64,000 bases of DNA from Thamnidium elegans. Lineage: Eukaryota; Mucoromycota; Mucoromycetes; Mucorales; Mucoraceae. Location: positions 310,001-374,000 of the forward strand of contig JAIXMG010000017.1 of assembly GCA_025201345.1 (NCBI GenBank), given 5' to 3'. Position numbers and translations under genes: made by a program. Of this stretch, positions 760 through 5,620 are shown piece by piece (position 1 is the stretch's first letter; each line of letters begins with the position of its first letter). The notes beneath the pieces were generated by a model that was not told where the DNA came from, did no database searches, and saw only the letters and a program-made list of their open reading frames with translations.

Positions 760-999
760 TCTGTTCAACAACTTTTTTTTTTTAAAAAAAGAAAGAAAGA
801 AAGAAAAGAAAAGAAAAAAAAATGGAAGAGGGTTTATTTTATACAGTGACCTTTTTTTTAGCTGAGAATCAAACTGTTTATCAACAGAAAATGGGGCTGG
901 AACGATTTAATATGTGTGTCCTTTACACTTTTTACTTCTATCATGCTGTCATACACGCACGATAGGAAAAGACTCTTTTGGTTGTGTAAGACCTTTAAG

Positions 1000-1440
1000 T
1001 CCAGAGCACACCATATTCGAAATGGCGGTTTGCTATTCTTAAAAAAATTATTGTTGTTGGGATGTAGGGATTCTGCAAAATACTCCAGGTCTTCCGGAAC
1101 GAACACATATCCCACATATTTTTTGAAGCATTGGTGTCTCTATTCCATAACAGAACCCTAAAATTGGTACAACAAAGAACCTTATTATTAAATTGGAGAC
1201 GGACGTTGCTTTTGTTTTTACAAGTGTTACAGACCTAGATAATTCTTTTTAGATTGTATTGCTTGTATACTTACGACAGACGTTCTAAACTCGTTTATAT
1301 CCAGTAGACATAACTCTCCAGGTTTTTCTCGTCTTCTAAGATTTTTATAAAATAGAGAGACTACACCATGCCGGTGGCCTTTAAAGTGAATGCTGTCGAA
1401 CTTTTTGAATTTACTGCGTCTCAGTAGCTTTGACAAGTAT
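1000..1440 (-). pseudogene. Decayed TnpB/Fanzor-like nuclease, C-terminal part
   Basis: On the minus strand, about 1436-1277 reads GHRHG (near 1375), then a basic stretch and LLDINEFRTS. After a possible intron or deletion, about 1190-1110 reads VLCCTNFRVLLWNRDTNASK. NEFRTS followed by a Cys pair and WNRDTNAS is the C-terminal signature of TnpB/Fanzor proteins: a RuvC-II Glu, a zinc ribbon, and the RuvC-III Asp in RDxNA. The first CxxC of the ribbon is missing, upstream RuvC-I sequence is absent and downstream frames are broken, so it is a remnant. Seen: the motifs. Known: Fanzor RNA-guided nucleases are eukaryotic TnpB relatives and occur in Mucoromycota. Inferred: this piece comes from such a gene. 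Confidence 0.55.
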
Positions 1441-1840
1441 ATAACGAAACCCAGTTAAGAGAGCCGCACGTTTCAGTTCACACACAAAAAAATTTACTAT
1501 ATTTATACCAGACTATACCTATTAATAATCGTATAGTATGACTGTGATGCTCAGAGGTTTTGTTAAACGAGTATATATAAAAAAAAACTTGATACTGGTA
1601 TAATCCTAAGAGTATACCCAAATTATTTTCTTTTAATCACTTAAATCATATTCGATCTAAGATTTTTAAGGAGTAAATGGACGTGCATTTCTTTGGTTTA
1701 TGCAAAGAAAATATCCTTTATTTTTAATTTAATACTTTGTATGTATCATGCGATTATATCAGTTATTAAAAGTTAATTTTGTTTTAAGTCAAAGACAGTG
1801 GTTGATAAGGAATAAAAGTAATATATTTTATTTCTTCCTT
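1437..1840. other. AT-rich interval between the nuclease remnant and the Hsp70-like gene
   Basis: No coding frame with recognisable motifs is visible. It probably contains the 3' untranslated region and terminator of the Hsp70-like gene and the lost upstream part of the TnpB/Fanzor-like remnant. Confidence 0.4.
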
Positions 1841-4800
1841 TTAAAAACGAGCCAAAGTCGTTGGTTCTGCAGGTCTAATTATATTATATGGTTCCATCTC
1901 ATCGCCCACAACTTTAGTCGACAAAGAAAAGGAGGAAGGATATCCTTCATAAACTATAGAAATGACGACAGGTAATTCTGAACCTATGTTATCAAAGGGA
2001 CCCCCAATTTGTGGTCCTTCGATTTTTTCTGATGTATGATCGAAACTGTATATTTCGTCAAACCCTAAATTATCTAAATTTCTCATCTTAAAGTATTCTA
2101 GTATATGTAAAATATTAGCTACAAAGTAATACTCTAGTAATACTACTTACGTATGCCAAAACGACCCCGTAATGTCGCTGATTTCAAACTCAAATTAAAT
2201 ATTCGTTTTGTTTGAGTACTTATTTTGTCGCCCTTTTTAAAAAGTAAAAATACTGATTTGTTGTCGAATGAAATAGTTTTTGTATCCGAACTCTTGTATC
2301 TGTAGTTAAAATGTCGATTTGTGTTGTGAGACAATTGATTAAAGAAGATATGATCAAAAGAAAATCCGTAACTTTTACTGAAGACTTGATGCAAAACACC
2401 TACTCGAAACACTTTATATAAAAGTGGTCGTTGCTTAAGAACAGGCTGCAAAATCTGGTTCCATAATTTTGGTATAACATAACAAGGTGTGTCGATTCGT
2501 TTATCATACATAAATTGATTGTTTTCATCCTCTAATATTTTCATAAAGATAGGTTGAAACCACGGATTGTAGTTGAAGCATATCATGTGAAAAATATACT
2601 CGATATTTCTATACTCTCTAAATAATTGCTTATTTATCAAAGAGGTATATACAGCAGAGATAACTTCTTGTAGAACCGGCCGGAAAGAGATATCTATAAT
2701 ATCGCTGATGGTTATACGGACGCTACAGATACAAGAGGTGCTTATATATATGGTGGTTTGGTCCGTGTATTGCACGACCGAGTTCTTGCCGAGAACCTAA
2801 ATACGATATATATTAAAATTTATGGTACTAAATGGGTAATGTTAGATCTGTTACCTGTTTGGATATATAATTACGAAGATTTTTTTTAAATTTTTCTAAA
2901 TTCTTTGTAGAAAATAACTCTAACAGCTCGATGGCATCATTTTTAATATGCGTGTCGCATAATTGAATTAAGGTACTGTCTGCCATTATGTTGTTCCACA
3001 TTTTTAAGCAAAATGAGTCGTGTATACTGGGAATATGAATTATTTTGTCTTGAGTGATAATAGATTCCGAGCCATCTTCATTCGAGTCAGATGCAGTTAC
3101 TACTCGGTTTAGTGTTAGCTGTATATAACTTTCATGCAATTGAGCTAGCACAAAGAAAGAGTTAATAGAAAATTCCAACTCGTAGGATTGTTGAATTAAA
3201 GGTAATATTCCTTCCCCTTGTGTTATAATTCTTAATTTTTTAAAGCGATCACCCTTTCGTATCAGGCCACTCGCGTATATTATATCCCTTAAATTGTCTT
3301 CAGTACCAAAAAGTTTCTCCAATAATATCTTTTCTATTGTAACTGCATATCCAATTTTTATATCCACATTAGATTCTATGAAGCTTGACAACTTGCTCAA
3401 TACAACTTCAGAAATATAAAGTATGTAAATCCTTATAAATGTCTTTATATATTTTTGTTGTTGAATAGATACCAAAGTAGTCTCTTCCGGGGTCTCTCCG
3501 CGTAGTATATCTTTAATTTCTTTCACGATATGCTTATCACGAGGGTCTTTATCACCAGAGAAAAGAAATTTGTTACCAATTAATTGCTTTTTACTGAACG
3601 CAATACACTTGAGTAAAACCTTCTTTGCAGTAGCGTCCTTAGTTACAGCAGCATTCTTATTTTCAATAAGCTCCTTATTTAGAAGACCCAAAAAGTGGAT
3701 TATGTCGCTGGAAACGCGTTTTTCGACAAACGTAATAGATCTTAATAGATAAAAAAAGCTATTTTTTCTTGTTATTGCCAGACATATTGTACATATAAGT
3801 ATCCTTACTATTTTTTTACGGTCAATGTCGTTACTTCTGAAAAACTAAAAAACGAACTAAGAGAGCGCAGGCTAATACTGTTTTAGCATTGAGACCTAAA
3901 AAAATCGGTATTTATATCTTACCTTGTACCGGTCATAAAATCGTTGTGGTCCCAAATCTCTTTGGTCAACCCGTTTTCGTCTAAAATCGAAAACGATAAT
4001 TGCGTAGACTCAAGTGATATATCTATTTGGAGAACTATTAGTATTGAATGAAAAAAAAAAAGTACGTAAGATAATTTGAAATACCTATGTTCATAATAGC
4101 ATCTGGTTTCGATTTCAGAAAGATGGAAGAACTAGAGACCGATTTTTCTGTGTGTCGTATACGCGGTTTACTGTATATGTTTGAATTTTGAATAGCATCA
4201 AAAGCATATCGGTTAGCACCAAATACTATAGTTGTGTAATTAATAATTGTGGACTGATTATATTGGTGCACAATACTTTTCGGGTTTAAAGATATACGGA
4301 TATGTTCCAGCATGCATTTAAACCAGGATACTAAATTAATATTTAAAATATATGTATCGTCGCTGTTCTCTGCAGTTGTAAAAATATCGTAGTCCTTTAC
4401 GTGGTTGTTGAAAAGTAAATATTTCAAGTTATCTAACAGAGTTTTTCGAAATCCGGAGCATATATTATAAATACATATGGACTTTATAAATTCCTTTTGC
4501 TCTGTATCTAAGTACCAATCTCTTTTATTAGAAATCAAAGGTTCCCTTAATAGATAAAGTATATTATTACAGTCGTCGAACTGTCATAAAAATTTTTTTA
4601 GCTACAGCAATTTTAACAGTATCATTCTAAATTACCTTAGTATAAAAATATACATCTTTCATGCGTCCTAAAATATCTTCTATGATAGCTTCCTGAATAG
4701 CCGCCGGTAAACGTTCCCCAATGAATGTTTTTATACCGTTTTCAATATCATCAAGGGTAAAAGAGATGAAAGCAGAACGAACAACTTTTGTATATATCAT

Positions 4801-5620
4801 AGAACCAGAGAAATCGAATAAACAATTTAAAGGAGAAATCAAATCCAGCTTTATCAACAATTTATCCTCTTTAATAGGCGTTAGTCTGCACAGAGCTGTA
4901 TTTTTTCCTCTTTTCAAGCAAAGTCTTTTATTATCTGAATTCGTTAAACTGTAACACATGGCTTCTAAGTCAGAGCAGAAAAAAAGTTTATCTTCGTGAT
5001 GACTTTTCGATATTAAACCGGCTTCGACAAAAATAGGTCGAATGATGTCCTCTCTAATTTTTTCTTCCCACTCAGACGGTACAACGAACACATAGTGGAG
5101 CATATCGAGATTTTTAATATTTTCGTTTTCTTCTTTCAGCTCTTTTATTAACAAACGTATAAAATTTGATATTGCTTTTAACAAGAATATGTCATGTTGG
5201 CTCCGACTACTTTTGCTTTTACGGAAAATACGATTCAATCTTTTCGAAAATTGATCGATTTTTACGAAGTCACCATAATTATTATGGAAACTTTTATCTC
5301 CCCAGCTTAGGACCTTCTTTTTGTGTTCATCATAAGCTATAAAAGTGTCTTTTCTATTTCTTATATTAGTCAAACCAAGTTTTTATTATGTTGGAATATT
5401 ATATATACTTACTGTAGTGCGCGATTAAAGTTTTTGGTTTTTCTTGTTGAAGTAGAAAAACAGTTTAAGCCAATTTTAGTACGATCTAAATCTATGTAAA
5501 CGAAACAAATTTTTTAAGTATAAAATAAAGATATCTCTATTTGCTAATAATAAAAAGGGAAGAATACTTACAAATAGCCACACAATAGGTGTATTGACTA
5601 AGATTGTGGACTTTTTTCAT
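1841..5620 (-). CDS. Large diverged Hsp70-like (actin-fold ATPase-like) protein
   Basis: Exons 5491-5413, 5359-4636, 4580-4085, 4034-3923, 3836-2855, 2796-2151 and 2097-1841 join without a stop and with matching phase. A short first exon starting at the ATG at 5620 and ending near 5572 is less certain. The product is about 1,110 residues, far longer than ordinary Hsp70 (about 640). The early segment has the Hsp70/HSPA12 order: VLSWG, then YVFVVPSEW (compare the VTVPA segment of Hsp70), EAGLIS and a SDLEAMCYSL (compare NEPTAAAL) segment. The canonical DxGTT phosphate loop is absent, replaced by a VAIYLDRTKIG-like stretch if exon 1 is right, so ATP hydrolysis is doubtful. I associate this with uncharacterised Hsp70-like families of Mucorales; the partner and location are unknown. 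The open, phased structure argues that it is a working gene despite the mobile-DNA surroundings. Confidence 0.65.

Follow-up and report, generated by a model that had tools for sequence, protein, structure and literature searches.

Prokaryotic TnpB proteins combine a RuvC-III motif with a C4 zinc ribbon and use a guide RNA from the same locus. Their eukaryotic relatives of the Fanzor1 type are known from Mucor, Rhizopus, and Phycomyces, and one of the Mucor families has 11 copies, according to the available text of PMC3627910. An alternative Fanzor Glu, lying six residues before the zinc finger, is defined in the accessible part of PMC10711439. The available portions of PMC10432273 and PMC11423790 describe a mechanism in which the protein is directed by an omegaRNA and its guide to RuvC cleavage next to a TAM. 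According to the latter, Fanzor omegaRNAs are conserved in SL1 and variable past it, and the guide of the omegaRNA of PpFz1 includes C50-C58.

The window analyzed here is a 64,000-nt stretch of the genome of Thamnidium elegans, order Mucorales (C9:310001-374000 of 34.1 Mb in 64 contigs). On its minus strand, positions 952-1442 carry a decayed Fanzor (eukaryotic TnpB) gene of which the 3' end is left, its limits set by alignment to relatives. We are highly confident that this locus is what remains of a broken Fanzor gene, no longer able to encode a nuclease, and that the hairpin past its coding end is most likely the SL1 of an omegaRNA. A sequence-only reading had placed a remnant of this kind at 1000..1440; the relic is there and runs further, to 1442 upstream and to about 952 downstream.

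The coding remnant is split by an intron. Its 5' part (1275..1442, minus; KLLRRSKFKKFDS-IHFKGHRHGV...LCLLDINEFRTSV) matches a paralogue on C31 at 84% over 44 aa; the open frame extends to 1454, and the minus strand from 1454 to 1275 translates as ...KNLRRREKPGELCLLDINEFRTSV. A spliceosomal intron of 40 nt (1235..1274, minus; GTAAGT...CTAG) follows, and in the eight other copies recognized by script the intron measures 54-75 nt. Its removal joins NEFRTSV|VCNTC, placing the first CxxC directly after NEFRTSV. The annotated Helicostylum protein P0029 has the identical join, EFRTSVVCNTC, in agreement with this intron. The second part (1063..1234, minus; VCNTC...VLCCTNF...WNRDTNASKNMW) reads VCNTCKNKSNVRLQFNNKVLCCTNFRVLLWNRDTNASKNMW in translation and holds the remnant of the zinc ribbon and RuvC-III.

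NEFRTS, a Cys pair, and WNRDTNAS thus occur in order on the minus strand, as the sequence-only reading had noticed. The Glu codon of NEFRTS lies at 1290-1292, the Cys codons of CNTC at 1229-1231 and 1220-1222, and WNRD at 1136-1147, with the RuvC-III Asp (RD) at 1136-1138. Three of the four zinc Cys residues are kept; Phe (1160-1162) stands in place of the fourth, which is Cys in P0029 and in the paralogues L023 and L024. After splicing (E-FRTSVV-CNTC), the Glu precedes the first CxxC by six residues and is the alternative Fanzor Glu, not the canonical RuvC-II Glu of TnpB. The position at which TnpB carries the canonical residue is presumably that of the GDG found in relatives. The earlier assignments of the zinc ribbon and the RuvC-III Asp stand, and that of NEFRTS to RuvC-II is replaced. 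The upstream half is missing as claimed, and the first CxxC, thought to be lost, is present across the intron, the damage affecting the fourth Cys instead.

Profile and genome searches identified the family. For the spliced 104-aa fragment, PF07282 (OrfB zinc-ribbon/TNB) was the top family in the Pfam search, with 25.2 bits (E 1.8e-5) against a cut-off of 26.3, so that the proposed profile check picked out the expected family and fell 1.1 bits short of its threshold. The second exon piece alone reached only E 0.11 against this profile, the first had no Pfam match, and the fragment alone gave chance-like matches and no Fanzor among PDB sequences. As queries against the same genome, the exon pieces returned 33 and 15 matches at E <= 0.001 (the window's own place included in each), in keeping with the suggestion that relatives, perhaps intact, may exist elsewhere in the genome. 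The nearest paralogues are L021 (C31:172274), with 80% DNA identity over 413 columns, and L023 (C64:316503), with 81% over 291. Among proteins, P0029 of Helicostylum pulchrum (EFRTSVVCNTC...CCTNCRKLLWNRD) shares 56 of 67 residues (84%) with the fragment; it scores 19.0 bits against PF07282, under the cut-off, though it is the closest protein. Together with these relatives, the Pfam result supports a decayed TnpB/Fanzor-like gene, as had been claimed.

Zinc-ribbon segments of other relatives scored above the PF07282 cut-off: those of L024 (27.7 bits), L022 (26.5), the apparently complete 657-aa Mucor flavus protein P0004 (34.4), and L030 (35.2). The last belongs to a high-copy family whose query gave 106 matches in the genome (pieces, not loci) and whose 3' tail, a 270-nt query, gave 18, of which 16 spanned it almost completely. 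Among PDB sequences, the L030 segment matched SpuFz1 best (8gkh, E 2.2e-4), which bears on Fanzor1 versus Fanzor2 indirectly, followed by the viral TnpB-like L79 (9b0l, E 9.6e-4) and, weakly, PpFz1 (9cf0, 0.17), LaTranC (0.33), and GtFz1 (9cer, 0.42). DPG is present at RuvC-I in L024, L030, and 18 of 30 protein hits, the remaining hits including several that are partial or read DPN or NPG. The published regular expression DPGx(120-160)E x6 CxxC x(12-18) CxxC x(4-8) D matched 0/30 homologues in strict form and 3/30 when loosened. P0029 and P0030 have INPGR at RuvC-I where L024 has VDPGR, and the catalytic Asp may be lost in them. The high-copy members L030, L031, L038, and L039 are about 96-99% identical over long aligned stretches; a T run in their coding region varies in length, which means either a lost frame in some of them or an unreliable assembly at that point.

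The window copy is decayed. RuvC-I, with its DPG, and the whole N-terminal half are absent: alignment to L021 ends upstream at 1442, beyond which there are low-scoring AT-rich matches only (scored without a shuffled control). Comparison with L021 and Helicostylum P0030 places the junction of an internal deletion of about 51 bp at 1390..1400 (minus). About 17 residues around the canonical RuvC-II position are absent there, where both relatives have MPLVIFGDGMFNKD, and the MPLVIFGDG that lies upstream of NEFRTS in relatives is deleted. The frame is lost near 1100, after NMWD, that is, after WNRDTNASKNMW, and the alignable relic ends downstream at about 952.

The relic lies between minus-strand ORFs. 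The upstream neighbor ends at 1841; downstream, the ORF at 204-611 matches the zinc-finger family PF21816 (E 1.6e-6), and an ATG at about 759 may be the start of this zinc-finger gene, the gene models being made by reading. The upstream neighbor (1841-5400, minus) had been called Hsp70-like, for which we found no confirmation: two of its ORFs searched in Pfam and one in PDB sequences gave no Hsp70 match, with nothing at E <= 1 in either for 4627-5382 and a weak DEK_C match (E 0.033, Pfam) only for 2828-3844. Elsewhere in the window, a 345-nt inverted repeat (6434-6778/7480-7824) has arms that are 100% complementary and 701 nt apart, with an outer pair of 49 nt at 94% (6345-6393/7873-7921); it resembles an inverted duplication of recent date or else an element bounded by long terminal inverted repeats.

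In the best-supported history, a Fanzor-carrying mobile element inserted between two same-strand genes. The inserted copy lost its 5' half and the roughly 51 bp before NEFRTS, acquired a mutation of one zinc ligand, and lost its frame. Given these losses, the altered zinc ligand, and the broken frame, no nuclease is encoded now, and we infer that the relic is inert. Its ancestors presumably worked by the known Fanzor mechanism, by analogy with described members: the protein would bind an omegaRNA from its own locus, the guide part of which would direct RuvC cleavage of a matching site beside a short TAM. The hairpin at 1010-1026, most likely the SL1 of that omegaRNA, is a surviving part of the relic.

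Comparison of copies also indicated where the old element ends. Its probable right end lies at 952..975 (minus; GTCTTTTCCTATCGTGCGTGTA), and from 951 on no shared sequence was recognized. In seven window-type copies, shared sequence ceases after TTTCTTTGRGAGTGTA, the matching end in the window being GTGCGTGTA at 952; five copies of another family (L091-L095) end in YAGGYGTGTA before diverging. No terminal inverted repeats were recognized at nine right ends and at that of the window (best local scores 16-19, short words, without a shuffled control). As for target-site duplications in the seven window-type copies, 9-base words recurred upstream in L019 only, and the stretches read may not extend to the true left ends. 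A left end at AAAACAATTTTAC was rejected, since of 12 places read, 8 have the preceding sequence in common; the true left end thus lies beyond what was read. A few right-end blocks without a recognized Fanzor gene are now located. L048 (C1:1035078), L058 (C1:58119), and L059 (C19:51006) have hairpin blocks with no match to the five Fanzor queries within 1.5 kb and are possible ghost elements; in L058, the left-side motif that copies have in common lies at C1:56820, about 1.3 kb upstream.

Past the coding remnant, diverged copies have in common a block, CCGCCATTTCGAATATGGTGTGC...ACTTAAAGGTCTTACACAA, that contains an SL1-like hairpin (1010..1026, minus; GCCAU-UUCGAAU-AUGGU) with a 5-bp stem and a 7-nt loop, conserved and covarying, a candidate omegaRNA scaffold. 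The remaining conserved, scaffold-like part (979..1009, minus; ...GGACTTAAAGGTCTTACACAACC) is common to relatives. A pattern search for the window-type block with <=3 mismatches found 13 places including the window, and none with the pattern reversed; Fanzor coding matches adjoin the block on the same strand at 10 of the 13, the other three being L048, L058, and L059. The flanking structured RNA that had been suggested as something to look for has a candidate in this hairpin, which flanks the remnant at 1010-1026, on the evidence of sequence comparison. The same hairpin, with five pairs and a 7-nt loop, was seen at the 3' ends of more distant families (GCCGU-AGAGGAC-ACGGU, GCCGC-CUCAAAU-GCGGU, UCUGC-AAUGAAC-GCAGU). 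In total, it was placed in 31 sequences of the genome, the window and 30 others that are either Fanzor 3' ends or right-end blocks, and MAFFT co-aligned its columns without structure in segments pre-cut around the hairpin.

Pairing was found in 91.6% of the 155 cells of the 31 sequences, compared with 83.3 ± 1.4 in shuffles, and 21 cells were changed on both sides, compared with 7.5 ± 3.0; the covariation score was 0.474 versus 0.310 ± 0.031, and none of the 500 shuffles was as high in any of the three measures. These statistics are not probabilities, because the copies are related and pairing was taken into account in placing several of the 31 hairpins. The number of pairs with a double change (3; 163/500 shuffles as high) and of further pair types (7; 500/500) did not exceed shuffles. 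Pairing fell to 20.6-61.3% when partners were slid. All five pairs formed in 21 of the 31 loci and four in 8, whereas random 17-mers of the same regions had five pairs in 1.1%. The count omits L019 and L058 (hairpin indel) and L031 and L039 (near-copies of L038), and it represents the high-copy family by two copies, many of its 106 pieces lying outside it. From 20 further loci, 14 were used and L069, L071, L072, L077, L079, and L080 left out (hairpin absent or partial). With two patterns or by eye, no hairpin was recognized in L016, L017, L023, L026, L027, L035, and L036, nor any SL1 in the L091-L095 family; in L021 it was lost by deletion.

Folding energy in 20 scaffold-like segments was only slightly better than in shuffles (mean z -0.57). 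In many copies, a second hairpin of variable sequence could be folded downstream of SL1 (single folds); a conserved SL1 followed by a variable hairpin agrees with the available text of PMC11423790. In L066, the stretch running from the AUC before SL1 to UUUA measures 49 nt. Rfam gave nothing at the hairpin and one sub-threshold miRNA match at 753-801. An exact 18-nt piece of the block was absent from the viral contigs searched, among which records near this genome may be missing.

Two readings would take away the protein or the RNA. The marginal Pfam score of the fragment alone might point to a zinc protein of unrelated origin or to motifs that arose by chance; we give this virtually no weight, since the genome has paralogues, Helicostylum has an annotated homologous protein, PF07282 ranks first among families, and the best PDB match of a high-copy relative is SpuFz1. 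The hairpin, for its part, might be conserved as code for a C-terminal Fanzor peptide (A-T-S-N-V-V) and not as RNA structure. Mucorales proteins P0008, P0013, P0021, and P0022 do end in ATSNVV, and the open frame of L070 passes through the hairpin, encoding the similar ATSNMV. However, the frames that leave the zinc ribbon stop inside the hairpin loop in L022, L025, and L033 and before the hairpin in L024 (by eye), the stem pairs in all four, and changes are coupled between paired positions that fall on the first and second bases of codons, which makes the peptide highly improbable as the cause. Because the hairpin is coding in some copies and at or past the stop in others, the constraint is probably on RNA. 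A covarying hairpin at the right place fits the SL1 of published omegaRNAs by analogy and is most likely the SL1 of a same-locus omegaRNA; as a conserved hairpin the scaffold has good support, and as a transcript it is a candidate.

Granting such an omegaRNA, the relic might still be useful as a guide-RNA donor, its right end yielding a transcript that a complete Fanzor, if the genome has one, would take up in trans. The SL1 of the window keeps 5/5 pairs and shows a double change (CCAU/AUGG), the blocks at L048, L058, and L059 have none of the five Fanzor queries matching within 1.5 kb, and ghost elements without an ORF are described for SpuFz1 in the accessible part of PMC10432273. Yet the linker from the block to the right end is shorter in the window than in most aligned relatives, and we consider such a role quite unlikely. 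We would give similarly long odds to splicing of the omegaRNA of Mucorales Fanzor elements. Many copies have a scaffold of about 50 nt (SL1, SL2, UUUACAG) followed by GUAAGN, which resembles a 5' splice site; a donor-like GT with at least 4 of 6 positions of GTAAGT occurred within 10 nt of the scaffold end at 27 of 40 3' ends, compared with 93 of 560 windows drawn from these flanks as background, for anchors set by eye in related copies. Some right ends read YAG|GYGUGUA, with an acceptor-like AG, and in L091-L095 (C6, C21, C31, C62, and C17) this AG lies 75-77 nt after GUAAGU with a branch-like CURAC/CUGAU between them. Against this, the right ends of the window, L020, L021, and L059 lack AG, and the best donor in the window is a poor one (3/6 positions). 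Splicing, if true, would place a guide taken from the host DNA alongside the element just after the scaffold, which would account for the way in which a scaffold of about 50 nt could use a guide beyond the element end, tens to about 330 nt away.

With the inert relic as the preferred reading, the locus as such is an ordinary relic of a known kind, and the scaffold model is its new and useful by-product. It gives the omegaRNA scaffold of Mucorales Fanzors a testable consensus with compensatory changes in SL1, overlapping the gene end in some families, and could help predict omegaRNAs of Fanzors now annotated as hypothetical proteins. The Fanzor literature searched, which held few subscription papers and no supplements, yielded no earlier account of an omegaRNA consensus with covariation for Mucorales.

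Compared with Mucorales Fanzor1 as described in the available text of PMC3627910 and, for PpFz1 of Parasitella parasitica, PMC11423790, the locus shares the zinc-ribbon/RuvC-III end, the alternative Glu, and the many copies in one genome; unlike them, the window copy is cut short and has lost its frame. Terminal inverted repeats are present in some of the published Mucorales families, as far as the accessible text goes, whereas the right ends of nine related copies showed none. The PpFz1 omegaRNA, with 75 nt, SL1, and a small SL2, is near the scaffold of about 49 nt plus guide proposed here; SL1 has seven pairs in the published structures and five supported pairs in our comparison (PMC11423790, available part). 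Helicostylum pulchrum P0029 is similar in its 84% identity over 67 aa and its exon join and differs in keeping the fourth Cys; P0029 and P0030 have NPG at RuvC-I where L024 has DPG. With prokaryotic TnpB (IS200/IS605, IS607), the family shares RuvC-III, the C4 zinc ribbon, and presumably a same-locus guide RNA, according to the accessible part of PMC10711439, and the Fanzor relatives found here differ from TnpB in their introns and their eukaryotic host.
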